From a virus, in the IMG/VR virus record IMGVR_UViG_3300049629_000025, positions 1-37,229 of that record: DNA of 37,229 bases; one strand, 5' to 3'. The position numbers and the translations under genes were made by a program. Every line of letters starts with the position of its first letter. The stretch's first letter is position 1. The notes under the pieces were generated by a model, which had not been told where the DNA came from, made no database searches, and worked only from the letters and a program-made list of their open reading frames with translations. Below, one piece after another: positions 8,037 to 25,212 of this stretch.

Positions 8037-8747
8037 TTAACTCCAATTAATTGTGACCCAACCGTTAGCTCCATTGCCTGGGGTGCCGGCGTTATAACCT
8101 CCAACATTTACTCCGCCACCCCCTCCGACGGTTACAGGATAAGACCCTGCCCAGACAGGAAACCCAGAAGTTATTTGATGTGACCATTGTTGAGTAACTT
8201 TTCCTCCAGCGCCGCCATTACCACCGCTATATGCTGGTTGGAAGGCATAATTGAAATATCCGCTACCACCACCTCCACCAGCTCCTCCGCCTCCGGTTGT
8301 TACAGATCCTCCTGATCCTCCACCATTAGTACCTGCACCACCGAAACTTGCAAATCCACCGCCACCACCACCTGTCCCAGCAGTAGCAGATAATCCATTA
8401 AAAGAACTGTTGGCGCCACTGTTTCCTCCAGATCCGCCTTCGGCTATAGCAAAATAATATAAAAAAGCATAATAAGCGCCTTCACCACCACCACCGCCAC
8501 CTGCCGCAACATTAGCAAAAACTGTCTGGTATGGATATACTAACCATGAATATGAACCAGGAGTGCTGTAAGTATTACTTCCTGCCGCTGGTTTCCCATA
8601 ACCAGTACTTATGGATATCGATCCAGAAGGAACACCAAAAAGATATCTAGTGTTAGCTTCTCCAATAGAAATTTCAGAAGTGGCATTTCCTTTTGTTATA
8701 GTTGCGATATCTGAAAATGATATTTGTCCGCTAGATGGTAATGCCAT
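8037..8747 (-). CDS. Polyglycine tail-fibre tip protein (adhesin-like)
   Basis: This 236-residue protein has two parts. Residues 1-52 (MALPSSGQISFSDIATITKG through GVPSGSISISTGYGKP) form a small module common at the start of phage tail proteins, probably an attachment domain. From about residue 82 the protein is dominated by glycine runs (AAGGGGGGEG, GTGGGGGGF, TTGGGGAGGGGGSG, YSGGNGGAGG, TVGGGGGVNVGG) separated by aromatic or polar loops, ending NGWVTINWS. In T-even phages such as S16, glycine runs of this type form polyglycine-II helices in gp38, the receptor-binding tip of the long tail fibre. Here it directly follows a long fibre, overlapping its stop by one base (TAATG), as gp38 follows gp37. 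The receptor-binding role is inferred; there is no clear sequence match to T-even gp38 outside the glycine pattern. Confidence 0.85.
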   Translation of the reverse strand: MALPSSGQISFSDIATITKGNATSEISIGEANTRYLFGVPSGSISISTGYGKPAAGSNTYSTPGSYSWLVYPYQTVFANVAAGGGGGGEGAYYAFLYYFAIAEGGSGGNSGANSSFNGLSATAGTGGGGGGFASFGGAGTNGGGSGGSVTTGGGGAGGGGGSGYFNYAFQPAYSGGNGGAGGKVTQQWSHQITSGFPVWAGSYPVTVGGGGGVNVGGYNAGTPGNGANGWVTINWS

Positions 8748-11080
8748 TATTTACCTCTTTTTAATTCGTCTACTTCATTTTTGAGGTCTTTGATTGCTTC
8801 AATTAACAAAGCCACAATTCTATCATATTTAACCGCCTTAGTGCCGTCTTCTTTAGTTGCAACTACTTCAGGCAAAACCTTTTCAATGTTTTGAGCAATA
8901 ACGCCGACATCATGTCTACGGATAAAGTATCCATCTTCACCACCACGAGCATCCATGAATTCCTGGGTCCAATCAAATTCTACGCCGTCAACAGCCATAA
9001 CTTTTTCAAGAGCGTTTTCAATTGGTTTTACATTTTCTTTGAAGATGGCGTCTGAAGTATAATAAGCTGTGATGTTATTATTTGCTCTAATTTCGCCAGC
9101 AGTTCCGGAAGCAGCAGTACCAACACCAATTGAATTAAATTGTGAGTTCTGCGAAGTAGAAGTGAATGTTGCAGCACTTCCATCAATCGAGACGCCTGTG
9201 AGAGTTTGAGACCCTGTTGTTCTATTAATTGTCAGTGAAGTAGTGCCAATAAACATTGTTTGGTTTGTTGCTGCAGCGCCGATCTCACCAAGAGTCCATG
9301 AAACAGCAGCAGATCCATCAACAGATTTACCAGTTGATCCGATAGTAATAGTTCTTGACGTACCCCATGTAGCAGTTGTAATAGCAGCAGAACCATTGAA
9401 GGCGGAACCATTAATGTTTCTAGAAGTAGCCAATGTGGCTGCACTGTTGACGTTAAGATTTCCTTCAGTCTTACCATAAGCTGTAGTGGCATTATTGACG
9501 TTAAGATTTCCTTCAGTCTTACCATAAGCTGTAGTGGCATTATTGACGTTTAGTGTAGCCTCAGTTTTACCATAAGGACCAGTACTATTACCAATTAAAG
9601 TCGTTCCTACGTAATATGATACTGCATTAACGACTGTAGCATTGGCAGTAAATGCAGTTCCAACGGTATGACTAGCAGCGTTCATAGTTCCAGTGTGATA
9701 AACACCAGTGGCATTGGCAATAAGAGATGTTCCAACAGTATGTGACGAACCGTTAACTACACCAGCGTAAACTGGTAGATAAGCAGCGACATTGGCGTTT
9801 AAGGTAGAATTAAGCTGATAGGAAGCAGCAGCTGTTCCTCCTAGATTTGTGGAGTTATTAGCTGTTAATGCGCTATTTACGTTTAGAGTGCCTTCAGTTT
9901 TACCGTAAGCTGTTGTGGCATTATTAACGTTCAGATTGCCTTCAGTTTTACCATAAGCTGTTGTGGCATTATTGACGTTTAGTGTAGCCTCAGTTTTACC
10001 ATAAGCATACGTAGCATTATTAACGTTAAGATTGCCTTCGGATTTACCGCTAACAAATGACGTATTATTAGCAGATAAAGTTCCAATATATGTTGCATTA
10101 ACATGAACGCCAGTGGCATTTACTACAGTACCAGTTCCTGGAGTAACAAACAATCCTAAAGAATTGGCAGTAATACCATTATTAGCTAGAACAGAAACCG
10201 TTCCGGATGTCGTGAATGGACCGCCAGTTAGACCGTTACCAGTGCCAACAGAAGTTACAGTTCCTGCATTAACGTCATCAGCAGCCCAATAAGTGGCTGT
10301 ACCATTAGAGTGAAGAACTTGGCCAGCGGTTCCGTAAGTGCCATTAGCAGAAAGGCCAGAACCTAATATTAGGTTAGCATTATACGTATAAACACCAGAT
10401 ATTGTAAATGCCGCAGTGGTATTAACAACATTAGCTGGCATTCGAGCGTATGGAAGAACGCCTGTGGTTATATTAGTAGCATTGGTGTAAAAAGAACCAG
10501 GTTGGCTGTTTAAATTAGTGGCATTAGTTGCCTGCACAGCACTGTTAACATTTAGAGTAGCTTCTGTTTTACCATAAGGTCCAGTAGCATTACCGATTAA
10601 TGTTGCGCCAACATAATATGAAACAGCATTAACTACTGTAGCATTAGCAGTAAAGGCAGTTCCAACAGTATGACTAGCAGCATTAACGATACCAGTGTAA
10701 ACACCAGTAGCGTTAGCAACAGTAGAAGTGCCAACAGTATGACTAGCAGCATTAACGATACCAGTGTAAACACCAGTAGCGTTAGCAACAGTAGAAGTGC
10801 CAACTGTATGACTAGCAGCGTTCATAGTTCCAGTATGATACACACCAGTAGTATTGGCGATAAAAGTTGTTCCGACAGAAACACTAGTGCTGGTATTAGC
10901 GAAACCAACAATCGTTGTATTTCCGAGATAAACATCCCCTATAGTAGAAAGACGATGGGTGGGAGACGAATTATTGATGCCCACATTACCTGTAGCGGTA
11001 ACAGTAACTGCTGTTCCTAGTAAGGTGGTATTTGAGCCTGTTTCTAGACCGTTCTTTACGACGAAATTTTTATCTGCCAT
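8747..11080 (-). CDS. Long tail fibre with C-terminal S74 self-cleaving chaperone
   Basis: This is a 777-residue fibre. Residues 1-60 include a GNVGINNSSPTHRLS motif. The body is built of repeats: a 23-residue type (VNAASHTVGTSTVANATG followed by VYTG) and a 16-residue type (YGKTEGNLNVNNATTA). Between them lies a unique block, QVLHSNGTATYWAADD followed by VTSVGTGNGLTGG. Residues 676-777 form a peptidase-S74 intramolecular chaperone: S676-D677 at the expected self-cleavage site, K681 five residues after the serine as in known members, then DGVEFDW, HDVGVIAQNIEKVLPE and KYDRIVALLIEAIKDL. This domain drives trimerisation and is then cut off. The gene precedes the polyglycine tip protein, so the pair is a good candidate for the main receptor-binding fibre. 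The ATG at 11080 follows GGGAA. Confidence 0.9.
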   Translation of the reverse strand: MADKNFVVKNGLETGSNTTLLGTAVTVTATGNVGINNSSPTHRLSTIGDVYLGNTTIVGFANTSTSVSVGTTFIANTTGVYHTGTMNAASHTVGTSTVANATGVYTGIVNAASHTVGTSTVANATGVYTGIVNAASHTVGTAFTANATVVNAVSYYVGATLIGNATGPYGKTEATLNVNSAVQATNATNLNSQPGSFYTNATNITTGVLPYARMPANVVNTTAAFTISGVYTYNANLILGSGLSANGTYGTAGQVLHSNGTATYWAADDVNAGTVTSVGTGNGLTGGPFTTSGTVSVLANNGITANSLGLFVTPGTGTVVNATGVHVNATYIGTLSANNTSFVSGKSEGNLNVNNATYAYGKTEATLNVNNATTAYGKTEGNLNVNNATTAYGKTEGTLNVNSALTANNSTNLGGTAAASYQLNSTLNANVAAYLPVYAGVVNGSSHTVGTSLIANATGVYHTGTMNAASHTVGTAFTANATVVNAVSYYVGTTLIGNSTGPYGKTEATLNVNNATTAYGKTEGNLNVNNATTAYGKTEGNLNVNSAATLATSRNINGSAFNGSAAITTATWGTSRTITIGSTGKSVDGSAAVSWTLGEIGAAATNQTMFIGTTSLTINRTTGSQTLTGVSIDGSAATFTSTSQNSQFNSIGVGTAASGTAGEIRANNNITAYYTSDAIFKENVKPIENALEKVMAVDGVEFDWTQEFMDARGGEDGYFIRRHDVGVIAQNIEKVLPEVVATKEDGTKAVKYDRIVALLIEAIKDLKNEVDELKRGK
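9447..9542 (-). repeat. Exact 48-base tandem repeat, two copies
   Basis: Two identical 48-base units (9447-9494 and 9495-9542) encode the 16-residue fibre repeat YGKTEGNLNVNNATTA. A third, diverged unit follows from 9543, and further copies recur near 9890-10050 in the same gene. Identity at the DNA level, not only in protein, points to recent duplication or ongoing exchange. Confidence 0.9.
10662..10799 (-). repeat. Exact 69-base tandem repeat, two copies
   Basis: Two identical 69-base units (10662-10730 and 10731-10799) encode a 23-residue unit, VNAASHTVGTSTVANATG followed by VYTGI. A third partial unit follows with the first mismatch at 10805. They lie near the N-terminal end of the S74 fibre and would let its length change in steps of 23 residues. 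Confidence 0.92.
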
Positions 11081-11160
11081 GGTTCCCTGTCCCCTATGGT
11101 GTTGTTTTTTTAATATTTAGTCATATCGAAGGTTAGATTGCTCGCTCTATGTTGTAAATA

Positions 11161-11168
11161 GATTTATA
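11161..11168 (-). promoter_or_regulatory. Probable late promoter before the S74 fibre (TATAAATC)
   Basis: The minus strand reads TATAAATC, seven of eight bases of the T4 late consensus, immediately after a strong hairpin. It is about 80 bases before the fibre ATG at 11080. The leader between them (11081-11160) has no open frame that I can support. Confidence 0.5.
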
Positions 11169-11170
11169 AA

Positions 11171-11193
11171 ATGCCGTTCTTCAAGAACGGCAT
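11171..11193 (-). terminator. Strong hairpin, probable transcription terminator
   Basis: The arms GCCGTTC and GAACGGC, extended by AT pairs, form a near-perfect inverted repeat of up to 11 base pairs around a very small centre. On the minus strand it is followed by TTTATAAATC, a weak T tract. It begins eight bases after the stop codon of the 59-residue gene, where a terminator is expected. The short T tract leaves open an RNA-stabilising or processing role. Confidence 0.65.
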
Positions 11194-11200
11194 CACAGTA

Positions 11201-11380
11201 TTATTTAATGACTTTATCTGCAAGAGGACCAGCTGGAGGTGACGCTCTTAATTGTGCGTCAGCCTGTTTCTGGACTTCTGTGAAAGTTATCAGAACAGTT
11301 TCTAATGGTAGTTTAGAAAGCCCAAGCATCACAATATTTAGCTGTTCAATCGTCAATTCAAGTTTAACATTCTTATCCAT
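11201..11380 (-). CDS. Small conserved-type tail-region protein, 59 residues
   Basis: This short gene reads MDKNVKLELTIEQLNIVMLG, then LSKLPLETVLITFTEVQKQA, then a Pro/Ala-rich tail ending KVIK. The pattern of an N-terminal ELTIEQLN strand-helix, a LPLETV turn and an amphipathic VQKQADAQL helix is one I recognise from short frames scattered among fibre genes of T4 relatives, where it has no assigned function. Its stop at 11201 is followed by the hairpin at 11171-11193. A Shine-Dalgarno GGAGA stands before the ATG. It lies 19 bases after the stop of the 119-residue gene and probably shares its transcript. Confidence 0.8.
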   Translation of the reverse strand: MDKNVKLELTIEQLNIVMLGLSKLPLETVLITFTEVQKQADAQLRASPPAGPLADKVIK

Positions 11381-11399
11381 AATTTACTGTCTCCTTATT

Positions 11400-11759
11400 T
11401 TAGGTATTGCTAATCGCCGTATTTGGCGCTGGTGCCCATGGTAGAGTTGCATCTACTACAGGATTCTTCTTATCGTCGATTTGTTTCTGTATCTGTTCGT
11501 TAACATGTTCTTCGTATTGTCCAACAACCACTGCTTTGATCCAAGTAAGAACGTCGTCTTCAGTCAAATCTGAAAATGGAATGAAAGAAGTATTAGCTGG
11601 CATATTATTGGAAGAAAATGGAGTTGCTCCAGAAAATTCTCCATCAAGATCGCCTTCAGTCCCTATTTTCTTCCAATATGTCTGCACGACAACATCGGAA
11701 GTATTAGCAACAGTTGTAGTTTTTAATCCGGTTACTTTCCAAGAATATGTTACCGCCAT
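11400..11759 (-). CDS. Small conserved phage protein (DUF7936-like)
   Basis: The 119 residues begin MAVTYSWKVTGLKT and contain VVVQTYWKKIG, an Asn/Ser-rich loop, FIPFSDLTEDDVLTWIKAVV, then a helix EEHVNEQIQKQIDDKKNP and the ending TLPWAPAPN. The combination of a beta-rich front (tW-v), a PF-DLTE-DV-W helix and a C-terminal LPW motif matches a family widespread in marine phages that I believe is DUF7936, function unknown. It is usually found in tail and fibre gene neighbourhoods. The gene has a late-promoter-like octamer 28 bases upstream and stands at the head of a short unit with the 59-residue gene. Confidence 0.82.
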   Translation of the reverse strand: MAVTYSWKVTGLKTTTVANTSDVVVQTYWKKIGTEGDLDGEFSGATPFSSNNMPANTSFIPFSDLTEDDVLTWIKAVVVGQYEEHVNEQIQKQIDDKKNPVVDATLPWAPAPNTAISNT

Positions 11760-11786
11760 TTTATCCTCTTAGATTATGTTTTAAGT

Positions 11787-11794
11787 TATTTATT
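11787..11794 (-). promoter_or_regulatory. T4-type late promoter (AATAAATA) before the 119-residue gene
   Basis: The minus strand reads AATAAATA, 28 bases before the ATG at 11759. It overlaps the stop codon (11790-11792) of the upstream gene, the same arrangement as between gp18 and gp19. Confidence 0.55.
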
Positions 11795-12035
11795 GTAATC
11801 CTAATGCTTGTTTCAATTCATCAATAGTTAGACCAACACGCTGCAGTTTTTCCTGAACTGTTGGTTCTGGTAATGGTTCTGGTAATGGTTCAGGCTCTTC
11901 TGGTTTGTTACCTTTTTTTAACCATGCCTGATATTCTGCCCATTCTTCTGGATTATTGGGACCTAATATCATACCATCTGTTAGTCTTACAACCGCATTT
12001 GTATGGAGCCTTGATTTATAATTAAGTTTTGTCAT
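11790..12035 (-). CDS. Small proline-rich tail-region protein, 81 residues
   Basis: The protein reads MTKLNYKSRLHTNAVVRLTD followed by GMILGPNNPEEWAEYQAWLK. It then has an acidic Pro-Glu repeat (EPEPLPEPLPEPT, about residues 47-59) and a C-terminal helix QEKLQRVGLTIDELKQALGL. The NPEEWAEYQAWLKKGN motif is common in short proteins accompanying phage fibres, including C-terminal parts of fibre-assembly helpers, and the VGLTIDELK ending is likewise common. It may be a fibre chaperone fragment or linker; I cannot assign a function. Its ATG overlaps the stop of the upstream 194-residue gene (TAATG). Confidence 0.78.
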   Translation of the reverse strand: MTKLNYKSRLHTNAVVRLTDGMILGPNNPEEWAEYQAWLKKGNKPEEPEPLPEPLPEPTVQEKLQRVGLTIDELKQALGLQ

Positions 12036-12619
12036 TAGTTATATCCATATGCTCTTACTGTCCCTGTGATGTTTCCTGATGATGCATACATTTGAAATCC
12101 GGTTATAGCAACCGTTGATGCTGTATACCATCCTCCACCAATATACAAAGCAGTATATCCTGTCGTGTATGTCGGACCATTAACCTTGTAATCCCAAGTT
12201 TTATAAGTAGAACCCGTCACATTATAAAGATACATAGTACCACATATACCAGATCCGCCAGTGGCTGTTGTAATGAAATATGACGGATAAGTCATTGATA
12301 ATTGTGTTGCTGACACTGAATGGAATGCACCAGTATTATTATTGAATATACCATAACCCATACTTTGATATCCAGCCGCTGCGTTGAGATATGCGCCGCC
12401 ACCATATAACTGAAAATAAAGAGTCACCGACTGAGTTACAGGCAACAGATTTTCAAACACCAATTCGTAATTTCTATAACCAGAAAGAACAGTAGTAGCG
12501 AGAGAAGCGACATTCGTGCCGGTGATCGTAGTAACCAAGTTTCTTGATCCATTACCGGTTGCCACAATACTGTTATCCGGATATGTGATACCACTGGTGC
12601 CGTTTATAGTGATCGCCAT
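12035..12619 (-). CDS. Small beta-rich tail protein, possible receptor-binding domain
   Basis: The 194 residues start MAITINGTSGITYPDNSIVA, the short leader seen on many phage tail-tip proteins. After it comes a single beta-rich domain (about residues 30-194), full of Tyr, Gly, Thr and Ser, with LSGYRNYELVFENLLPVTQS, TLYFQLYGGG, YKTWDYKVNG and the ending TGTVRAYGYN. The GYRNYELVFENL block and the final AYGYN strand are typical of a compact beta-sandwich found at phage tail tips. A carbohydrate- or receptor-binding role is inferred from fold type and place. It lies between two small genes that look like fibre-assembly helpers. Confidence 0.8.
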   Translation of the reverse strand: MAITINGTSGITYPDNSIVATGNGSRNLVTTITGTNVASLATTVLSGYRNYELVFENLLPVTQSVTLYFQLYGGGAYLNAAAGYQSMGYGIFNNNTGAFHSVSATQLSMTYPSYFITTATGGSGICGTMYLYNVTGSTYKTWDYKVNGPTYTTGYTALYIGGGWYTASTVAITGFQMYASSGNITGTVRAYGYN

Positions 12620-12623
12620 CTAG

Positions 12624-13034
12624 TTACTGCCCACAAGTAAGCGTTAAAAGTTCTTCAAGAGTAGTCGTAGAATCCACTACCTGAGTAATGTTACGAAGGC
12701 GGTTCTTTTCAGCAACAATAGCAGTTGTATCAGCACCAGTTTCCTGTGCCTTCATGAAAAGAACATCTTGTGCTGCTAGTAGAGGAGCACGTTCGTTTCT
12801 TAGGCGAACCTTGGTGATCTCTCTTGCTTTATCAATATTGACAGTGATTGTATTAGCATCCATTTCCCAAGCATCAGAAAACTCTGGATGTTCTGGAAGA
12901 TCAGAGGTATCAACAATACGAGCAAAGTTACCTAGGCCGCCTTTGTCTAAAATCTCTTGTGGTGTAAATTCTTTGGAAGGTGAGGTGATAGAAACACCGC
13001 CCTGTCCGTTTTGTGATATAATAACTTCAGCCAT
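12624..13034 (-). CDS. Probable fibre-associated helper protein, 136 residues
   Basis: The N-terminus (MAEVIISQNGQGGVSITSPS followed by KEFTPQEILDKGG) is unassigned. The C-terminal half carries a block shared with the 258-residue gene at 13425-14201: SDAWEMDANTITVNIDKARE, then KVRLRNERAPLLAAQDVLFM, KAQETG, and LRNITQVVDSTTTLEELLT. The order 'AW, then ID-KA, then R-R--R--L---D--F, then LR-IT' is a helical module I have seen in many short proteins beside fibre genes of T4 relatives. It resembles the helical arm of tail-fibre assembly proteins. Function is inferred. The next gene starts five bases downstream. Confidence 0.78.
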   Translation of the reverse strand: MAEVIISQNGQGGVSITSPSKEFTPQEILDKGGLGNFARIVDTSDLPEHPEFSDAWEMDANTITVNIDKAREITKVRLRNERAPLLAAQDVLFMKAQETGADTTAIVAEKNRLRNITQVVDSTTTLEELLTLTCGQ

Positions 13035-13059
13035 TATTTTGATTTCTCCTATTGAATTT

Positions 13060-13425
13060 TTACCGAACTACGTTACAATTGATGTTAGGTGCGTCGGAAC
13101 TAGTTGAATTGCCGGCGGAAGATTGTATTCTAACAACTGAGGCACTGACATAAGAAAATAGAGTAAGTGCTTCTGAGTTAACTCCCTTTGGACCAGTAAT
13201 ACCGGAAGCACAATAATTAACGTCTGTTAAAGCAGTAGTAAAATTCATGCTGTAGTCGCCGGAACCGTTATAAGTTACTGAAGACACATTAAATGAGGCA
13301 CGAACAGAATATGGAGAATTTCCTTTATAATTCATCCATGCTTTTAAACTACCTCTGATAATATTAGTAGCACTAGTGCTATTTGTTTCATCTGATATTG
13401 TGCTTACTGTTAATGTACCTGCCAT
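13060..13425 (-). CDS. Small beta-rich tail protein, copy A of a paralogous pair
   Basis: The 121 residues begin MAGTLTVSTISDETNS and contain the core SLKAWMNYKG, then VRASFNVSSVTYNGSGDYSM, NFTTALTDVNY and a final strand NINCNVVR. The pattern AW-NF-G---IRASFNVSS--R-G-GDYT-N is a beta domain frequent in phage tail-tip proteins. A second copy with the same pattern lies at 14294-14689. Its ATG overlaps the stop of the 258-residue gene (TAATG), so each beta protein flanks that helper. A surface or receptor-binding role is inferred. Confidence 0.82.
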   Translation of the reverse strand: MAGTLTVSTISDETNSTSATNIIRGSLKAWMNYKGNSPYSVRASFNVSSVTYNGSGDYSMNFTTALTDVNYCASGITGPKGVNSEALTLFSYVSASVVRIQSSAGNSTSSDAPNINCNVVR

Positions 13426-14201
13426 TATACTTCCTTAGTGAGATAGTCTGGCCAGACCTTTTCTAGTTCTTCTATGGTTCTGGCTGCTTCTAATTCTGGT
13501 AACTGTGTAACGTCTCTTAGTAATTGCTTACGATTAGCAATGGCCTTTTGATATTCTGGTGTTCCTCTTTCCAACGCTATAAAATACTGCGTGTCAAGTT
13601 TCGGAAACAGTAGTTCTCTAGCCTGTCTCATTCTGTTCTTCCATATATCTTTCGCCTTGTCAATGTCTATAGAGATAAGTTGTTCTTCTGTATCTGATAG
13701 ACGCCACGCATTTCTATATGTCTGGTCTACCGGTATATCTTCCCTTGTAACAATTCTATACATTTGTCGGTTATACTTATAATCAGGATGCCATACTCTT
13801 GCCGGGACATCCTTCTTTAGAATATACTCAATTGCCTCTTCTTCTGTCATAGGGCCGATTGGTTCTGGTAACAAGTATTCTTTATAATCTATAACTTTTT
13901 CGCCAGTGATTCTTTTCTCTAGTCTGATCTGTTGTGCTTCTAAGAATGTTGTTACAATCTTTTCACCATGATCAGTAGTCAATTCTAGTTTCATATTATG
14001 CTGGTGTTCTACTGCTGGTAGAATACCGCCAGCCAAGGCGCAAGTCATCCATTCTGGTGCTACACATACCTCACATACTGGATGATCTGGATATGCAGGG
14101 TCTTCATAAACAATAACATATTTGGATTGATATGGTTCAAGGTTTTCAGACGCCCAATGTAACCTGGTAAACATATCTACATTACGAAAATCTGGTGTCA
14201 C
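13425..14201 (-). CDS. Probable fibre-associated helper protein with GTG start
   Basis: This is a 258-residue protein. The start is GTG at 14201, with AAGGAG eight bases before it; the first in-frame ATG is residue 10 and has no ribosome site. The N-terminal part has Cys and Trp residues (HPVCEVCVAPEWMTCALAGG) that could form a small metal or disulfide site. The middle has KVIDYKEYLLPEPIGPMTEE. The C-terminal half carries the same helical block as the 136-residue gene: RNAWRLSDTEEQLISIDIDK, IWKNRMRQARELLFPKLDTQ, YFIALERG, and KQLLRDVTQLPELEAARTIE. It sits between two paralogous beta proteins, which fits a dedicated folding or attachment helper. No enzyme motif is recognised. Confidence 0.8.
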   Translation of the reverse strand: MTPDFRNVDMFTRLHWASENLEPYQSKYVIVYEDPAYPDHPVCEVCVAPEWMTCALAGGILPAVEHQHNMKLELTTDHGEKIVTTFLEAQQIRLEKRITGEKVIDYKEYLLPEPIGPMTEEEAIEYILKKDVPARVWHPDYKYNRQMYRIVTREDIPVDQTYRNAWRLSDTEEQLISIDIDKAKDIWKNRMRQARELLFPKLDTQYFIALERGTPEYQKAIANRKQLLRDVTQLPELEAARTIEELEKVWPDYLTKEV

Positions 14202-14293
14202 TTAGTTCTCCTTATCTATTAATTATTATATAAACTCTGAAAAAAACAGTTCAAGGGTCGCCAGAAAAATATATAAAGCATTTAATTATAATC
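14202..14293. other. AT-rich intergenic gap without a recognised gene
   Basis: Ninety-two bases separate the 131-residue gene from the GTG-started gene. On the minus strand there is a run of seven T (around 14240) after GCGACCCTTGAACTG, but I find no clear stem before it, and no exact late-promoter octamer. The Shine-Dalgarno AAGGAG for the downstream gene is at its left end. Confidence 0.5.
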
Positions 14294-14689
14294 CTATCTT
14301 ACTAAATTTGTAGAACAATATACAGGATCTCTAGCGCCGCCGCCGCCATCGGATACAAATACTCTAACAAGACTTACGGTGAGTCCCCAACATATAGCTT
14401 GTCCGTCATTAGCACCGCCAGTAGCTGTATTGGTAAACGAATAGTTAGCAACCGCAGAATAATTTGCATCATTAATCGCATTCGAAATATTAACTGTGTA
14501 ATCTCCACCACCATTTCGAACAGCACTGGAAACATTAAAACTCGCTCTAATAACAGCCGAACCTGTTGATCCGTTAAAGTTGCACCAACTTCTACACAAT
14601 CTTCCAATCTCGACACCACTAGAGTTATTAAAAACCGTTGGTGTTGATACTTCCGATCTAATAGTATCTACCGTTACTGTACCTGCCAT
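14294..14689 (-). CDS. Small beta-rich tail protein, copy B of a paralogous pair
   Basis: The 131 residues begin MAGTVTVDTIRSEVSTPTVF and contain RLCRSWCNFNGSTGSAVIRA, SFNVSSAVRNGGGDYTVNIS and NAINDANYSAV, ending YCSTNLVR. The core matches the 121-residue protein at 13060-13425 strand for strand, but the N-terminal linker and the loop before the last strand (SDGGGGARDP) differ. It directly follows the 1216-residue fibre with a nine-base gap, so it may cap or extend that fibre. Tip or receptor-binding function is inferred from the fold pattern and location. Confidence 0.82.
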   Translation of the reverse strand: MAGTVTVDTIRSEVSTPTVFNNSSGVEIGRLCRSWCNFNGSTGSAVIRASFNVSSAVRNGGGDYTVNISNAINDANYSAVANYSFTNTATGGANDGQAICWGLTVSLVRVFVSDGGGGARDPVYCSTNLVR

Positions 14690-14698
14690 ATTATCCTC

Positions 14699-17600
14699 TT
14701 ATAGAACTACCCAATTCGAGCCAGTTGGAATGGTGACTGACACACCTGTATTTATGGTGACTGGCCCAACAGTCACGGCATTGTAGTTTGTCGTGATAGT
14801 GTAGTTAGCAGCAATGGTTTTGGTCATTTCAAGGAATGGGTATGATACCTGTCTAACGACACCAGCTAATACGGCAGATGTTGCAGCATTGGGGTCAACA
14901 TAGTAGTTAGTATCATTGTGATCATAAAAAATAGGCGCTCGCCACGAATTAGTTGATGTACCTATACCAAGAGTCCAGATACCTGTACCAACAGCGGATT
15001 GTGTAACACCATTGATCATAAACAAGGCTTGATGATTTAAACCAGCTTTGGACTGTGGATTGTTTCCTGCAGCGCCGTGATCTGGATTATAAGACCAACC
15101 AATACCATAAAAAGCGCCATATGTATTTGAAGAGCCGCCATTGGTTAGTATATAAGATGAACCCATAGCAAATATTGCCTGAGTTTGAGCAGGATCGTAA
15201 ACGCCAATTAGACCTTTTCTACCATTATTGAATTGTATATTACCTAAAGTGTTTAAACCTGTTGCACCAGCAGGATCACAGTAATAAGCAGTGTTGTCAG
15301 AATCATAGAAGTATGGGGCTCTCATACTACCAGCTGCTTGTGTATACGCAGCGCTAAGATCGCATCTAGCATTTGTTCTACTATAAGAAATAATACCACC
15401 ACCTGATGCAGAATATAGACCCCATGCAGTGCCATTATTAAACAAATAGGCAGCACTTTGACCAGTAAAGTTAGCAAGCAACTGACCTTCTGACGCTGTT
15501 GTTGCGGTGGCAAATGAGGATCCTTGAGCGCCAGTAGCAGTTGTAGCATTACCAGCAATGTTCATCGTCTGGCCGCTGATAAATGTAGCAACCTTAGCAG
15601 CAGTAGCAGAACGATGATAGTTGTCACCAAACTTACCCATTAGATATGTTAGCGTACCAGTACTTACATCATCGCTTGAATTGTGATAAGAAGCGTTAAT
15701 ATAACGACCGTTAAAATCACCATTGGCATCTCTTGTTACAACTGTTGAACCTGTTGCTGTTGTTGATGCTGCAGAAAGACCAAAAGCGAAAGTCGCATTG
15801 TTGGCTGTGATTGTTGCAATATAAGAAGCATTGACAGACAGAGTTCCCGTAGTGGTAATTGTACCGCCAGAAAGACCTGTACCCCCAGCAACAGAAGTTA
15901 CTGTACCACCAGAATTGTCATCAGCTGCCCAATAAACTGCTGAACCATTTGAATGTAATACTTGTCCTGCAGTTCCTAAACCACCATTAGCACTTATACC
16001 AGCAGTTGTTGAAATGACAAGATTACCGCCAAGAAAAGTTGTTCCATTGACTGATAGTTTATGAGCAGGTGCAGTATTACCAATACCAGTATTGCCATTA
16101 CCATCTATATTAAATACAGAATCACCGCCAGCCCTTGAAATCTGAAATGAGTTGGCTGCTGGAGAACCTAGATATACTGGATTAACACTAGTGCCGTAGA
16201 ACAAACCAAGAGCATATGCTTCGTTTGATGGTCTTAATAGGGTTCTACCTCCAGTGACTGCTAGTCTACCGTCAGGAGTAGTAGTTCCAATACCAACGTT
16301 ACCACTATTTAATACAGTAATATATTCACTAAACGTATTCTGTGATGTATTAGATGCTGGATATGCACCTATTCTAACAGCTACAGTGTCTGATTTTCTA
16401 CCATAGAGGGCTGTAGCCCAAGCGGTACTTTGTAAAGAACCAGTGTCTCCATAATGAAGTTCTGCACCAAAACCTCTATCTGTCCAAAATGTGATACCAG
16501 CATTTCTAGCAGTATTTGCTGTCAAAGCACCGCTTTGTACCTGAACACCAAAAGTTGAGTTAGCAATAAAGTTAGATCCAACTGTGTGACTAGCCGCATT
16601 AATAATACCAGTGTAAACACCAGTTGAGTTGGCTATTGTAGAAGTTCCAACTGTATGACTGGCTGCGTTCATCGTTCCAGTATGATAAACACCAGTAGCA
16701 TTAGCAATGAACGATGTGCTAACAGTGTAAGACGATCCATTAACAACACCAGTATATACCGGTAAATAAGCAGCGATATTCGCATTCAACGTAGAATTTA
16801 ACTGGTATGAAGCTGCAGCGGTACCACCAAGGAATGAAGCGTTATTGGCTGATAATGTTCCAATATATGTTGCATTAACATGAACGCCAGTAGCATTTAC
16901 TACAGTACCAGTTCCTTGTGTTACGAATAAACCAGTAGTATTTGCTGTTATACCGCTGTTTGCTAAAACAGATACTGTGCCTGTTGTTGTAATAGCGCCG
17001 CCTGTTAGACCGTTGCCAGTTCCAACAGATGTAACAGTGCCAGAGTTATCATCAACCCCCCAATAAGTGGCTGTACCATTAGAGTGAAGAACTTGACCAG
17101 CAGTACCAAAACCGCCATTTGATGAAAGACCAGAAGAACCTAAAACAATATTAGCATTAAATGTTGTGACCCCTGTTATTGTTCCACCACCGGCATCAAA
17201 ATTAGCAGCCCATACCATGGCAGTTGTACCAATAGTATCCGTGGTCTTGAAATCATTATCAAACAATCTACCACCATTGGTCGTTCCTTCATCAACAGCG
17301 ACCAGAGCCGAAGCAATTTTACTTGATGTATTAGCGTCGTTTGCTCTTGTTAGAGTCCATGCATAGACTGCCGCAGAACCTGTATTTGAAACATAATATA
17401 TACCATTTTGATTGGCTGAAGTTTGGTTTTTAACTAATAGTCTGTCATTTAACGCTAAAGTAATACCATCTTGTGCAGGTAATGCTACAAGCCCACCAGT
17501 CAAAACTTGTGTAGTAGCAGAAGCTGCTGATAAATCGGCAGTAGTAGCAGCACGACAAGATTTCTTGAAAGTGGCCTCTGGTAGATACGCCATATCTATC

Positions 17601-18349
17601 TGAGTAAATGCAGGAACTGTACCGTTAGAAGCTAAAACAAAGGTGTTAGTTCCCGCCGATGTAATAGCCATGCCAGTAGCATTGGAATAAACAACGCCGC
17701 CAGAAACCGGAGTTAATGAAGAATTTGTGCCGCCTCTGGCAGCAGAAAGAGTGCCAGTAGAAATGTTAGTAGCATTAGTGTAATATGCTGCTGCTTGTCC
17801 GCCGAGATTAGTAGAGTTATTAGCTGTTAATGCGCTATTGACGTTCAGATTACTTTCTAATTTACCATAAGGGCCAGTGTTATTACCAATAAGCGTAAAC
17901 CCAACGTAAAAAGATCCAGCATTAACAACAGTGGCGTTGGCAGTAAAAGCTGTTCCAACAGTGATAGATGAACCATTAACTACACCAGTATATACACCAG
18001 TAGAGTTGGCGATAGTTGATGTGCCTACGGTGTGAGATGAACCATTAACAACGCCAGTGTATGTTGGTAGATAAGAAGCTATATTGGCATTTAATGTAGA
18101 GTTTAATTGATATGAAGCAGCTGCGGTACCGCCAAGATTGGTTGAGTTATTAGCAGTTAAAGCAGAATTAACATTAAGATTACCCTCAGTCTTACCATAA
18201 GGACCAGTAGAGTTAGCGACCAATGTAGAATTAGAATAAACGCCAGTGGCATTGGCTGTGAGTATGGTAAAAGTCGAATTCGCACCAATTCTGGCGTTTG
18301 TCGATTCAATATAACTATTGACTGTAGAATTACCTACAAATAAGGTCAT
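14699..18349 (-). CDS. Long repetitive tail fibre, 1216 residues, with inserted domains
   Basis: This is a modular fibre. It begins MTLFVGNSTVNSYIESTNAR and carries the 23-residue (VNGSSHTVGTSTIANSTGVY) and 16-residue (YGKTEGNLNVNSA) repeats common to the fibre genes here. At about residues 258-390 is a distinct domain with CRAATTADLSAAS, LNDRLLVKNQTSANQNGIYY and FKTTDTIGTTAMVWAANFD, seen in other phage tail proteins. Blocks QVLHSNGTATYWGVDD and VTSVGTGNGLTGG are shared with the S74 fibre. GNVGIGTTTPDGRLAV-type motifs follow. Near the C-terminus two RAPxFYD--xTxYY-DP motifs occur (about residues 1008 and 1135), and the end is VTIPTGSNWVVL. No S74 domain is present. The ATG overlaps the stop of the upstream fibre (ATGA). 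Confidence 0.88.
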   Translation of the reverse strand: MTLFVGNSTVNSYIESTNARIGANSTFTILTANATGVYSNSTLVANSTGPYGKTEGNLNVNSALTANNSTNLGGTAAASYQLNSTLNANIASYLPTYTGVVNGSSHTVGTSTIANSTGVYTGVVNGSSITVGTAFTANATVVNAGSFYVGFTLIGNNTGPYGKLESNLNVNSALTANNSTNLGGQAAAYYTNATNISTGTLSAARGGTNSSLTPVSGGVVYSNATGMAITSAGTNTFVLASNGTVPAFTQIDMAYLPEATFKKSCRAATTADLSAASATTQVLTGGLVALPAQDGITLALNDRLLVKNQTSANQNGIYYVSNTGSAAVYAWTLTRANDANTSSKIASALVAVDEGTTNGGRLFDNDFKTTDTIGTTAMVWAANFDAGGGTITGVTTFNANIVLGSSGLSSNGGFGTAGQVLHSNGTATYWGVDDNSGTVTSVGTGNGLTGGAITTTGTVSVLANSGITANTTGLFVTQGTGTVVNATGVHVNATYIGTLSANNASFLGGTAAASYQLNSTLNANIAAYLPVYTGVVNGSSYTVSTSFIANATGVYHTGTMNAASHTVGTSTIANSTGVYTGIINAASHTVGSNFIANSTFGVQVQSGALTANTARNAGITFWTDRGFGAELHYGDTGSLQSTAWATALYGRKSDTVAVRIGAYPASNTSQNTFSEYITVLNSGNVGIGTTTPDGRLAVTGGRTLLRPSNEAYALGLFYGTSVNPVYLGSPAANSFQISRAGGDSVFNIDGNGNTGIGNTAPAHKLSVNGTTFLGGNLVISTTAGISANGGLGTAGQVLHSNGSAVYWAADDNSGGTVTSVAGGTGLSGGTITTTGTLSVNASYIATITANNATFAFGLSAASTTATGSTVVTRDANGDFNGRYINASYHNSSDDVSTGTLTYLMGKFGDNYHRSATAAKVATFISGQTMNIAGNATTATGAQGSSFATATTASEGQLLANFTGQSAAYLFNNGTAWGLYSASGGGIISYSRTNARCDLSAAYTQAAGSMRAPYFYDSDNTAYYCDPAGATGLNTLGNIQFNNGRKGLIGVYDPAQTQAIFAMGSSYILTNGGSSNTYGAFYGIGWSYNPDHGAAGNNPQSKAGLNHQALFMINGVTQSAVGTGIWTLGIGTSTNSWRAPIFYDHNDTNYYVDPNAATSAVLAGVVRQVSYPFLEMTKTIAANYTITTNYNAVTVGPVTINTGVSVTIPTGSNWVVL

Positions 18350-21300
18350 TGCATTTCTTCCAATTTAAATTTGAATTTTTTACCATTTTTATTATTTATA
18401 ATGTATAACTCACTTTCGCCCTCTTGGATAGTCCAGTTACCAGTGGTTCCATCAATGTCATTGCCCCTAGTTCTTTCGTTAGATAAATGTAAGTCGCCTG
18501 TATATACGTTGGCCCAACGGAGGGATGCAGAACCAAGATTATAAGAGTTGTCACCGGATGGCATGATATTACCAGCAACGACAAGTTTATCTGCTGGTGT
18601 TGTGTTACCAACGCCTACGTTACCATTAGAGGCCAAATACGTAGAAGTAGAAGCACCTGGAGAAAAACTAATCGCATTAGCATGATAAAGATTTAATAAA
18701 CTACTTGCTATCTGAAGATATCCACCGTATGTACCATCTGTTAGATACAAATATGGATTCGCTCCACCTGTGATATTCATCGCAGCACCAGAAGTACTAA
18801 TAGCACCAGTAGCGTTTACAGTTCCGCCGAAATAACCAGTTCCGTTTACTGACAGTTTATGAACTGGAGAAGAATTACCAATACCAACATTACCATTAGA
18901 AACAAAATAAGTTCCTGTTCCAATAGTAAATGTGTTACTAGAAGTATTAGTTGTAACAGTAACAGCGCTGTTAACATTTAGAGTGGCTTCAGTCTTACCA
19001 TAAGGACCAGTAGTGTTACCGATTAGAGTAGAACCAGAATATATAGAGCCAATAGTTCTAAAGTTACCAGTTGCAGAAGCTAACTCGGCAACAACCGAAG
19101 GAGTGGTTGATGTTGCTGTTCCGCTTTCCCAAGTCCAACCATAAAGCGCATTATTTTCAATAAATGATCTTCTTGCCCATGAGGTAACATAAGTTCCCGA
19201 AGGCGCTGTTACTGTTCCTGTCCAACCTTGGCTTGCTCCAGCAGGTGCCATGTAATCTTGCCAAGCTGTATATCCAGAGTTATACCAATTGATACCACGT
19301 GCTGCTGCAGCAGATCTATCTAAAAATAATACAGGGGTTTTTGTAGTAGTTGAGTTTGCAACAAAAGAAGAACCAACAGTGATAGATGAACCATTAACAA
19401 CTCCGGTATAAAGACCACTAGAATTAGCGATAGTTGATGTACCAACTGTATGACTAGCAGCATTAACCGTTCCGGTATGGTAAACGCCTGAAGTATTTGA
19501 TACTAACCAATTTGTAGAAGTATTACCAAGATACAGAGTATTAGCTTGGAAATTAGCTATTTGGAAAGTAGTATTTGTTGTATCAATGTTAACATTAGCA
19601 TCTGGTTCTGGCTTATAACCATCAAAGACTTTCCATGTTCCATCTGAAGCATCTCGGAAAATACCAGTATGGGCATAACCCAAAGAATTGCCTGTGCTAT
19701 TATAATTAGCTACTATACCGGTATCTTCGTTATCTATTGAATTATTAGAGTTTAGATAGATAAAGTTATCAACAACAGATAATGTGTTTGCGCCAACAAC
19801 ATTAACATTACCAGAAATATTCAAACTACCAGTAAGCGTTAATGTGCTGAAAGTAGGACTATCTGTAGTTCTAACATTCTGATCCATACGGTATGGAAGT
19901 CTAGCTTCTGCTAAAGTTCCAGTGTTGATATTAGTGGCATTGGAAGCAAATACAGTAGCATTAGAATAAGCTGTCGCCGCATTACCGGTAATAGCCGCAT
20001 TGGCTGTAAGTATCTTACCATCAACATAAGAAACAGCGTTAGTGTAAGCTGTCGCCGCATTACCGGTAATAGCCGCATTGGCTGTAAGTATCTTACCATC
20101 GGTGTATGATACAGAGTTAGTATATGCTGTTGCTGCGTTACCTGTGATAGCTGCATTAGCGGTTAATATCTTACCATCAACATAAGACACTGCATTAGTG
20201 TAAGCAGTAGCAGCGTTACCTGTAATAGCTGCATTAGCGGTTAATATCTTACCATCAGTGTAAGATACTGCGTTAGAATAAGCAGAAATAGCAGCTGACT
20301 GTGCAGATGCCGCTCTAGTGTTAGCGTCTATTGCTCTATCATAAGCATTTTTAACTGTATTGGCTACTGGAATGAATAATATAGAAGTATTAGTTACTGA
20401 ATCTAATCTTAGGCCATTAGTGTAAGATACTGCATTAGTGTAAGCAGTGGCGGCGTTACCGGTTATTGCCGAATTAGCAGTTAGTATCTTGCCATCAGTG
20501 TATGATACAGCATTAGTATAAGCAGCCGCTGCAGCTGTTTGGGCTGAAGCAGCACGAGTGTTAGCGTCGATAGCTCTATCGTAAGCATTTTTGACGGTAT
20601 TAGCTACTGGAATAAAGGTAATAGAAGTATTTGTTACAGAATCTAATTTCAAACCATCAACATAAGACACTGCATTAGTGTATGCAGTGGCGGCATTACC
20701 TGTAATAGCAGAGTTAGCTGTTGCTATTTTTGAATCCGTATATGATACAGAGTTAGTATATGCTGTTGCTGCGTTACCTGTAATAGCCGCATTAGCAGTT
20801 AGTATCTTGCCATCAGTGTATGATACAGCATTAGTGTAAGCAGTAGCCGAATTGCCTGTAATCCAAGATACGAAGTTGGCCGTAGTTCCGGAAGAATTAC
20901 CTAGATACGATGCAGTATTTGAAGTTATAGAGTTATTAACATTTAAGTTAATTTCTGTCTTACCATAAGGTCCAGTGGTATTACCTATTAATGTTGATCC
21001 GGCATAATAAGATACTGCATTAACTACTGTAGCATTAGCAGTAAACGCTGTTCCAACAGTAAACGAAGAAGCGTTAACGATTGATGCGTCTAGCTTACCG
21101 GTGCTTGGAACATAATACAACTTAGTTGTAGAAACAACAGCGTTTGTCCAAGCGCCAGAAGAACCGTTTGCTAGACCAATGTAATAAGTTTGAGTATCTG
21201 TATTGTTAGCGTTTAGTGTAGCGCCAGCAGTGGCCCAATAAGTAGATGAACCATTAGAAAGTAAAGATTGACCAAAAGACCCATAAGAACCATTTGCGGA

Positions 21301-22488
21301 TAATCCAGAAGAACCTAGTGTAACATCGCCGCCTAAGAATGTTGTACCATTAACCGATAGTTTATCGGTGGGATCCGTATTACCAATACCAATATTACCA
21401 CCAAGAGGGTTAAGGATAATTGAATAATATACAGCACCACTTGCTGAATAACCAGACTGAATCCATTGATGAAAATTTGATTGTTGACCAAATGCTAGAT
21501 AATTTCCGCCAAAACCGCCCAAATAAGCATAAGCATTAGATTTAAAATCACCAGCAGAAGCATTCGTTTGACCGTTAATATTTGTAAAGGTTGCTGTATT
21601 AGGAGAACTAATTGTTATACTATTTGTAATAATTGCTGATGAATTGATAGTAGCATTAGATGTAGAACTTCCAACAACTAATCTATTAGCAACATATGTT
21701 CCAAGATAGCCAGTTTCGAAATAAGACGATTGACCATTTAGACCAATAGCAAACCCTTCGCCAGAAGTATTAGCTGTAAGAATATCAATGGTGTTACCAG
21801 TATAAACCCATTTAGTAACATTATTGGTGTTTCTACCAATTCTCCAGTTAGCGTCCGCAACACCGTTGAAATAAAGAGAATTATTAGTAGCTAATCCGAT
21901 TTCATCAGAGAATGAAACGTTGGCGCTAAATGTGTGCGTATTTGTCCAAACATATTGCGCTGCTGTGTTTGTAACTAGAGCAGCTAATGTTGACCAATAT
22001 GTAGATGAACCATTAGATAATAGAGCTTGACCAGCAGTACCAGTAGTTCCGTTTGCTGTAAGAGCTCCAACATTAGCAGAGAAATTTACAGGTACAGAAA
22101 AGTTTAGATTGCTCGTAATACTATTAGCAAATATACTCCAAACCGCTCTTGAACCGCCAGCAGTATTAGTTGTATAAAATACAAAATTATCATCGTTCTG
22201 TTGTATGAAAGATACAACATTTCCATTAAGTGTTGAGAAATTTAATTTGACGTTATTCTTGAAATGAACGCCTGAGTTGTTAGAAAATACAGTGTTAGCA
22301 ACGCTAAGAGTGTTAGAAACATTTACATTTGTATTATTAGCGCCGATTTCCCAAGTATTAGAACCATCAGAAGAATAGAGTCTTCTATCAGTTAGGTTTA
22401 AAGCCAATTCACCGATAGTTATGTCAGATGTAGTGGGAACTTTCCCTGCGACCGATGAACGGCGCAGTTTAAAAACTGTATTTGCCAT
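18346..22488 (-). CDS. Long repetitive tail fibre, 1380 residues, with coiled-coil-like repeats
   Basis: This is the largest protein here. The N-terminus MANTVFKLRRSSVAGKVPTT followed by DITIGELALNLTDRRLYSSD matches the small N-terminal domain of phage tropism-determinant-type fibres, which probably anchors the protein. Two GNVGIGN motifs and the QVLHSNG-like QALLSNGSSTYW block follow. The middle is an array of 26-residue units (AYTNAVSYTDGKILTANAAI followed by TGNAAT), with two longer 80-residue units containing VKNAYDRAIDANTRAASAQ, probably alpha-helical or coiled coil. Then come LRDASDGTWKVFDG-type and 23-residue repeats. The C-terminus has NIMPSGDNSYNLGSASLRWA, DLHLSNERTRGNDI and ELYIINNKNGKKFKFKLEEM. 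The C-terminal codons contain a late promoter for the next gene. Confidence 0.88.
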   Translation of the reverse strand: MANTVFKLRRSSVAGKVPTTSDITIGELALNLTDRRLYSSDGSNTWEIGANNTNVNVSNTLSVANTVFSNNSGVHFKNNVKLNFSTLNGNVVSFIQQNDDNFVFYTTNTAGGSRAVWSIFANSITSNLNFSVPVNFSANVGALTANGTTGTAGQALLSNGSSTYWSTLAALVTNTAAQYVWTNTHTFSANVSFSDEIGLATNNSLYFNGVADANWRIGRNTNNVTKWVYTGNTIDILTANTSGEGFAIGLNGQSSYFETGYLGTYVANRLVVGSSTSNATINSSAIITNSITISSPNTATFTNINGQTNASAGDFKSNAYAYLGGFGGNYLAFGQQSNFHQWIQSGYSASGAVYYSIILNPLGGNIGIGNTDPTDKLSVNGTTFLGGDVTLGSSGLSANGSYGSFGQSLLSNGSSTYWATAGATLNANNTDTQTYYIGLANGSSGAWTNAVVSTTKLYYVPSTGKLDASIVNASSFTVGTAFTANATVVNAVSYYAGSTLIGNTTGPYGKTEINLNVNNSITSNTASYLGNSSGTTANFVSWITGNSATAYTNAVSYTDGKILTANAAITGNAATAYTNSVSYTDSKIATANSAITGNAATAYTNAVSYVDGLKLDSVTNTSITFIPVANTVKNAYDRAIDANTRAASAQTAAAAAYTNAVSYTDGKILTANSAITGNAATAYTNAVSYTNGLRLDSVTNTSILFIPVANTVKNAYDRAIDANTRAASAQSAAISAYSNAVSYTDGKILTANAAITGNAATAYTNAVSYVDGKILTANAAITGNAATAYTNSVSYTDGKILTANAAITGNAATAYTNAVSYVDGKILTANAAITGNAATAYSNATVFASNATNINTGTLAEARLPYRMDQNVRTTDSPTFSTLTLTGSLNISGNVNVVGANTLSVVDNFIYLNSNNSIDNEDTGIVANYNSTGNSLGYAHTGIFRDASDGTWKVFDGYKPEPDANVNIDTTNTTFQIANFQANTLYLGNTSTNWLVSNTSGVYHTGTVNAASHTVGTSTIANSSGLYTGVVNGSSITVGSSFVANSTTTKTPVLFLDRSAAAARGINWYNSGYTAWQDYMAPAGASQGWTGTVTAPSGTYVTSWARRSFIENNALYGWTWESGTATSTTPSVVAELASATGNFRTIGSIYSGSTLIGNTTGPYGKTEATLNVNSAVTVTTNTSSNTFTIGTGTYFVSNGNVGIGNSSPVHKLSVNGTGYFGGTVNATGAISTSGAAMNITGGANPYLYLTDGTYGGYLQIASSLLNLYHANAISFSPGASTSTYLASNGNVGVGNTTPADKLVVAGNIMPSGDNSYNLGSASLRWANVYTGDLHLSNERTRGNDIDGTTGNWTIQEGESELYIINNKNGKKFKFKLEEMQ
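18393..18400 (-). promoter_or_regulatory. T4-type late promoter inside the 3' end of the 1380-residue fibre gene
   Basis: This is a perfect TATAAATA on the minus strand, within the codons for YIINNKNG near the end of the upstream gene. It lies 44 bases before the ATG at 18349, so the second fibre could be transcribed independently. Confidence 0.65.
19967..20100 (-). repeat. 26-residue repeats with 56-base exact DNA copies (78-base period)
   Basis: Bases 19967-20022 and 20045-20100 are identical over 56 bases and stand 78 bases (26 codons) apart. They belong to a longer array, roughly 19965-20870, in which the unit is repeated with increasing divergence. Confidence 0.88.
20399..20648 (-). repeat. 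Two 240-base units encoding an 80-residue repeat
   Basis: The segments encoding DSVTNTS-I-FIPVANTVKN followed by AYDRAIDANTRAASAQ recur exactly 240 bases apart (marker base 20399 and 20639). Each is a composite of a helical insert plus 26-residue units. DNA similarity is high but not perfect. Confidence 0.75.
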
Positions 22489-24882: not shown

Positions 24883-25212
24883 TTATCTCGTAACTTGAGG
24901 CGTAACTGTAATGATACCTTCGACAATTCTAGAAATCACTGAACCGTCGTCAATTTCTACGTCATAAACATATCTACCAGCCACCAAGTTGCTTGTCTGG
25001 TTGGCAGTCAAAGATAAGGTCACAACCCCTGATGTAGTGTTTATAGAAGTTGAGAAAACTGCAGCTGCATTAGATGAGGTATACCACTTTCTTACTTGAG
25101 AATTCGCCGAATAACCTATTAGGTTCAAAATGTCTCCATTTTCGTCTGTTAAAGACAAATCCGTAGAGAAAGTAGTTCCTTGATCGATTACTAGATTAGC
25201 TTTTGTGGCCAT
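24883..25212 (-). CDS. Small beta-sandwich structural protein, 109 residues
   Basis: The protein reads MATKANLVIDQGTTFSTDLS, then LTDENGDILNLIGYSANSQV, RKWYTSSNAAAVFSTSIN, VVTLSLTANQTSNLVAGRYV, and YDVEIDDGSVISRIVEGII ending TVTPQVTR. The order 'QGTTF, then G--L-L-GY-A--QVRK, then TA-QTS-L--GRYVYDVEI, then RIVEG---V-P-VTR' is a compact Ig-like module common in T4-like phage structural regions, often next to baseplate and fibre genes. Its ATG overlaps the stop of the 1216-residue fibre (TAATG). Role as a baseplate or fibre connector is inferred from position. Confidence 0.86.
   Translation of the reverse strand: MATKANLVIDQGTTFSTDLSLTDENGDILNLIGYSANSQVRKWYTSSNAAAVFSTSINTTSGVVTLSLTANQTSNLVAGRYVYDVEIDDGSVISRIVEGIITVTPQVTR

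Follow-up and report, generated by a model that had tools for sequence, protein, structure and literature searches.

The fibre genes of a T4-like phage

The window, by which we mean the whole stretch of DNA analysed here, is a 37,229-base fragment of an uncultured water phage from IMG/VR whose genes lie on the minus strand. Reading from high to low coordinates, structural and fibre genes are followed by gp13, gp14, gp15, gp16, gp17, gp18, and gp19. Based on this order, in which the gp13-gp19 neck, terminase, and tail genes adjoin a fibre cluster, we classed the phage as a T4-like myovirus; the same gp13-gp19 order is present in annotated relatives. The best isolate match for the window gp17 was Sinorhizobium phage phiN3 at 55%, and cyanophage and methylophage records matched at 49-51%. 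Within the fibre region, the genes run in the order F1216b, a 511-aa fibre, a 1380-aa fibre, F1216, seven small genes, the S74 fibre, and a glycine-rich 236-aa protein. Four of the fibre genes recur below:

8747..11080, minus strand: S74 fibre gene (777 aa), with a match to Pfam PF13884 (4e-14, residues 676-740) and to PHROG tail / long tail fibre families
14699..18349, minus strand: F1216, a 1216-residue fibre gene, an ORF with repeat modules common to the S74 fibre, F1380, and F1216b
18346..22488, minus strand: F1380, a 1380-residue fibre gene, with 25-29-nt tracts in common with S74, F1216, and F1216b
25212..28862, minus strand: F1216b, a second 1216-residue fibre gene, with a 25-nt tract in common with the 1380-aa fibre

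The PF13884 match at the C-terminus of the S74 fibre scored 53 bits against a curated cut-off of 22, and we assign the gene as a Peptidase_S74 fibre with a predicted C-terminal intramolecular chaperone domain of the endosialidase type. For the large fibres other than S74, F1216 included, there was no PHROG family match and no Pfam match above cut-off. NCBIfam gave no informative match for the fibre ORFs, and tblastn with F1216b (25212-28862) found no relative among phage isolates. At the low-coordinate end of the fibre region, the glycine-rich 236-aa gene and the downstream 178-aa gene overlap by ~70 bases in different frames (window 8037-8107).

Two exact patches in a diverged module

When the S74 gene was aligned with F1216, we obtained a colinear homologous block that includes two stretches of exact or nearly exact identity, referred to as patch 1 and patch 2 herein. 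The features of this comparison, along with two further exact matches of the S74 gene, are as follows:

10045..10405, minus strand: homologous block in the S74 gene (nt 676-1036), 77.2% identical to 16822-17182 over 364 columns
16822..17182, minus strand: homologous block in the F1216 gene (nt 1168-1528), 77.2% identical to 10045-10405 over 364 columns
10285..10321, minus strand: patch 1, S74 copy, 37 nt exact, QVLHSNGTATYW, identified by sequence match and exact in this lineage only among the viral contigs
17059..17095, minus strand: patch 1, F1216 copy, an exact match to the S74 copy
10080..10139, minus strand: patch 2, S74 copy, GTGTVVNATGVHVNATYIG, identified by sequence match, 24 and 35 nt exact with one mismatch between them
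16857..16916, minus strand: patch 2, F1216 copy, matched to the S74 copy
9852..9877, minus strand: 26-nt exact match of the S74 gene to F1216 (17814-17839), off the colinearity of the block
10626..10654, minus strand: 29-nt exact match of the S74 gene to the 1380-aa fibre (21017-21045), FTANATVVN

A first-pass annotation of the window had reported that bases 10081-10114 equal 16858-16891 and that 10285-10321 equal 17059-17095, with a spacing that differs by one codon between the genes. We recovered both matches in frame, over 34/34 and 37/37 bases, and the spacing (204 versus 201) was as described. The first of them reaches 35 nt (10080-10114 / 16857-16891) and, together with a neighbouring 24-nt match (10116-10139 / 16893-16916), accounts for 59/60 nt. 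The annotation had further taken a segment of ~240 bases to be colinear and near-identical in both genes. Its colinearity is borne out, and near identity describes the two patches, but not the block as a whole; the alignable block is longer, at 364 columns, and identity is limited to tracts of ~37 and ~60 bases.

Our codon alignment of the block covered 119 positions, of which 98 specify the same residue and 59 use the same codon, with 82% amino-acid identity and a one-codon indel. The same-codon positions are clustered, first in a run of 12 (QVLHSNGTATYW) and then in runs of 7 and 11 around one silent change (GTGTVVN-A-TGVHVNATYIG). Outside exact runs of at least seven codons, 29/68 same-residue codons matched, compared with 27.7 expected at saturation, that is, with silent sites fully randomised under the codon usage of the two genes. 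Upon permutation of the matches among same-residue codons, the two longest runs together were reached in only 1 of 20,000 shuffles (p = 5e-5). Since the same-codon runs are clustered, the silent sites elsewhere are saturated, and permutation so rarely reproduces the pattern, we read the block as an old homologous module bearing two young-looking patches. Per-column codon frequencies in unrelated blocks gave a product match probability of 6e-5 for patch 1 and of 2e-7 for patch 2, the latter figure being approximate because 1 of its 19 codons differs between the two window genes. A comparison of the block with the PDB found no relative, and the AlphaFold model of the block (pLDDT 56, pTM 0.31) was too poor for use.

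Relatives, lineages, and strains

The S74 block was present at 100% in seven contigs (L006-L012). The next relatives, L013-L016, have an S74 orthologue (84% aa) along with an 885-aa fibre that lies upstream and also carries the block. Outside the patches, silent matches amounted to 52/73 between the S74 genes of the window and L013 and to 37/56 between the window F1216 and the L013 885-aa fibre, whereas the window S74 gene and F1216 matched at 28/66, which is at saturation. By its silent sites, the block thus falls into two lineages, one comprising the S74 genes of the window and L013 and the other comprising F1216 and the L013 885-aa fibre.

Patch 1 does not follow these two lineages, as it is the same in the window S74 gene, the window F1216, and the L013 S74 gene and different in the L013 885-aa fibre. 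Because the L013 S74 gene has the same patch DNA and the other L013 fibre does not, patch 1 was probably copied from S74 to F1216. In a GENECONV-style run test, the global p for S_w/F_w was 0.09 with four sequences, a weak and underpowered result, and 0.03 with seven; given the weak four-sequence test, the direction is one that we infer, with L013 as the single outgroup. For patch 2, the right half does not differ among the four genes, namely S74 and the other fibre in both the window phage and L013. Within L013, the 35 nt of the window patch 2 are common to the S74 orthologue and the 885-aa fibre, and this is the sole exact match of at least 24 nt between the L013 fibre genes examined. Since the right half is common to both genes in both phages, we infer that patch 2 was exchanged before the split of the window phage and L013, or more than once. 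Exact scans of 2.9 million viral contigs found the patch DNA nowhere outside the window phage type and its next relative. All of its occurrences in these contigs were inside fibre genes with parental flanks, and the order of the flanks was unchanged. As a separate feature of the S74 gene, a 48-nt YGKTEGNLNVNNATTA repeat array lies at window 9440-10067; it is partly missing from the L013 S74 orthologue, so its copy number is variable.

Polymorphism in short patches was also observed at the strain level. For contigs L006 and L011, two strains of the window phage, identity to the window is 98-99% across the genes from gp19 to S74, with divergence setting in at 11121, ~40 bases upstream of the S74 start codon. 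On the far side of this breakpoint, to ~18000, both have a different gene cassette and a different large fibre with the same N-terminus and a different C-terminus. Along the F gene, the first 154 bases have three scattered differences between the window and L006, the 73 nt that follow (155-227) have ~17, in two groups, and the next 83 bases are identical. The first group of changes gives L006 a 24-mer equal to the TEATLNVN repeat of the S74 gene; among the loci examined, this 24-mer occurs only in this species. No donor was found for the second half of the patch. Judging from these matches, the L006 cluster is a short-patch replacement between strains, for one half of which a within-genome donor is the best match. 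The S74 gene is likewise a mosaic between strains: nt ~250-610 (window 10470-10830) are 80% identical in L006, and the rest is nearly identical. In a search for the donor of this L006 segment, nothing matched more closely than the 80% allele of the window itself.

Tract sharing among fibre genes of one genome

We surveyed 99 distinct loci. Among 650 non-overlapping pairs of fibre-like genes (a class set by amino-acid composition alone, so that the tail sheath is included, and from which overlapping ORF pairs were left out as they inflated the counts), we found 28 exact tracts of at least 30 nt in 14 genomes, compared with none in 4,196 other gene pairs. All 28 tracts were in the same reading frame. 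While about half of the survey loci were found by block similarity, L088, L098, and L103, which were found through gp13, carry tracts. Pairs with a common 30-mer made up 19/650 within genomes versus 24/46,426 between genomes (odds ratio 58, p 2e-24), where the between-genome control consisted of genomes with unrelated cores whose other genes had no common 30-mer. Codon resampling under each genome's own usage gave 0.4 expected pairs (maximum 1) versus the 19 observed.

Most tracts have homologous flanks in which silent identity is near saturation, and this agrees better with conversion within old modules than with recent short duplications. For instance, in L017 the S74 fibre and a 1191-aa fibre in the place of F1216 have 62 exact nt in common at another module; around this tract 73/74 codons specify the same residue, and outside it 22/53 same-residue codons match. 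The longest tract, of 107 exact bases, was found in L037 between ORF 2-2383 (from nt 611) and ORF 9773-13798 (from nt 2372), which are ~10 kb apart. Two complete isolates gave comparable results. Pelagibacter phage HTVC008M has four paralogous fibre genes with 53 distinct 30-mers in common versus 1.1 expected, and Synechococcus phage S-SRM01 has three RCC1-like fibre-region genes with 34 shared 30-mers versus 1.1 expected. Old tandem duplications, and not conversion, may account for some of the excess within genomes, above all in RCC1-like repeat fibres. The process is not universal, since phiM12 had no shared tracts and Melnitz-3 had one match only, of 29 nt. As an aside on the S-SRM01 locus (L163), the region 31329-39753 holds three RCC1-like repeat genes with many exact tracts of 24-42 nt, and the set in L038 is similar.

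Taken together, we consider it very probable that the patches are short gene-conversion tracts and that paralogous fibre genes within a genome undergo conversion repeatedly. The S74 fibre and F1216 have in common an old homologous shaft module, with DNA that is diverged to silent saturation. Stretches of ~37 and ~60 bases would then have been copied from gene to gene, in frame and with the flanks unmoved, and comparable copying would recur across T4-like aquatic phages, at different modules, among the fibre genes of one genome. The short tracts, the intact flanks, the kept frame, and the within-genome enrichment all point to non-crossover recombination between modules. Gene conversion between the fibres, as the first-pass annotation had proposed, is therefore supported in the form of two short tracts and not of a single 240-base segment. 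The likely machinery would be recombination-dependent replication, in which strand invasion or template switching at short homologies is followed by heteroduplex repair; such a pathway is well known from T4 replication. The recombination genes of this phage, a T4-like recombinase included, lie outside the window, and UvsY-like genes are annotated in related isolates.

Four other explanations were weighed against conversion within one genome. The one that survives best, although we think it unlikely, is exchange among co-infecting phages of one population, in which each gene received its patch from the fibre gene of a neighbour. Strains do differ by whole swapped fibre regions and by mosaic segments in the S74 gene, and related genomes share tracts too (25/1,431 pairs). 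Moreover, because the tracts are short, a phage of the same lineage may have been the source of any single patch. However, sharing is ~60 times as frequent within genomes as between genomes whose cores are unrelated, and such exchange leaves the match between non-orthologous genes of one genome unexplained. We regard as less probable still a constraint at the nucleotide level, either a DNA or RNA element in the patches or a locally fixed codon choice. The identity of the right half of patch 2 in four genes of two phages is in its favour, as is the finding that blocks of other, unrelated phages match the window codons slightly more often at the patches (rates of 0.49-0.53) than elsewhere (0.41). 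However, codons at the patch positions vary freely among the other blocks examined, and since these blocks use other codons there, the patches are not fixed DNA elements. In addition, the patch DNA is private to the window/L013 lineage, and the shared tracts of other genomes sit at other modules. The unrelated-genome control and the variation of the patch codons led us to reject constraint as a general cause.

The first-pass annotation had also offered a recent duplication between the fibres, which would mean that a segment of ~240 bases or longer is only now starting to diverge. While the colinear block, its one-codon indel, and its amino-acid identity would agree with a duplication, we consider it very improbable and reject it by the silent-site profile, since silent sites are saturated both between the patches and on either side of them and the F1216 block is nearer at these sites to the L013 885-aa fibre than to S74. 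According to the annotation, identity limited to the patches along with silent saturation would speak against its reading. Pairwise alignment returned this very pattern, which disposes of duplication and leaves conversion standing, because the patches are private to the lineage and common to the paralogues and belong to an excess seen generally within genomes. Lastly, chance combined with codon bias, or an assembly artefact, is barely credible: although no part of the module is more conserved than the patch motifs, 200 redraws of the synonymous codons of the fibre genes gave an S74-F1216 exact match of at least 34 nt once in 2 runs and twice in 0/200, the same flanks appear in contigs from several samples, and the isolate genomes HTVC008M and S-SRM01 have the same excess.

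In T4-type phages, short conserved motifs in fibre genes were reportedly described as recombination points by Tetart and colleagues in 1998. In that system the exchange is between phages and the adhesin is replaced, whereas in the window the short tracts are those of paralogues in a single genome, and their flanks are left in place. Accounts of fibre mosaicism usually centre on phage-to-phage exchange, a form that is well known (PMC10684548; Tetart et al. 1998, as cited in PMC6027323). Receptor-binding proteins show recently emerged domain mosaicism (Smug et al. 2023, PMC10684548), which resembles the present case in that fibre genes are hotspots of ongoing fragment shuffling. That mosaicism is at the level of domains and between protein families, whereas the window tracts are far below domain size; in the passages of that paper reached by a term search, within-genome paralogues did not come up. 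Phage recombinases can join diverged DNA, so that modest homology is enough for mosaics to arise (De Paepe et al. 2014, PMC3945230), although that work concerns temperate phages and defective prophages with Rad52-like enzymes and the window phage is T4-like. For Bacillus phage 0305phi8-36, an intragenomic domain transfer was proposed (PMC2147016). It is alike in that domains are proposed to pass among virion genes of one genome, but it is one ancient whole-domain event at 41% identity, whereas here the tracts are short and recurrent. Our searches of the open-access literature turned up no account of recurrent short-tract conversion, or of conversion at all, among the paralogous fibre genes of a genome.

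If conversion of this kind takes place, a phage that infects a cell alone could alter the apparatus with which it binds its host, and short within-genome copying between fibre genes would be a means of reshaping the grip on the host cell. The rate of conversion would be measurable in a clonal stock, and fibre-gene phylogenies would mix orthology with concerted evolution. More tentatively, several paralogous fibre genes might serve as a within-genome reservoir, with frequent in-frame tract copying that keeps modules alike while tips diverge. This would be a phage counterpart of conversion-driven antigen diversification that uses ordinary recombination without a dedicated cassette system, a proposal that we hold to be possible but doubtful.

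Recombination between the two genes had also been predicted to delete the DNA between them and to fuse the N-terminus of the larger fibre to the S74 tip. In principle, a crossover between the patches could delete ~6.8 kb in frame and join the N-terminal third of F1216 to the part of the S74 fibre that begins at the block. The N-terminus of the S74 fibre itself would be lost as well, a consequence that the prediction omitted. We found no recombinant patch flanks or deletion junctions in the contigs examined and no fused genes, with 0/104 S74-domain ORFs having an F-type N-terminus and 0/5 distinct F-type genes having an S74 domain. This absence holds for consensus genomes only, since a rare deletion would not show up in an assembled contig. 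That fibre genes undergo deletion is in itself plausible, given that the T4-like phage PP01 underwent parallel deletions of 579-686 bp in gene 37 in the laboratory and that natural relatives have similar losses (PMC6027323). The two cases are alike in that T4-like long-tail-fibre genes readily lose internal segments; the PP01 deletions are within one gene, whereas an inter-gene deletion was not seen among the contigs examined here.

A minor observation concerns a stand-alone 194-aa protein (12035-12619), which is homologous to the C-terminal ~190 residues of the L013 885-aa fibre at 55% identity. Three tandem copies of this module are present in L017. Based on this homology, we assign the 194-aa protein as a putative tip module that is fused in some phages and separate in others.
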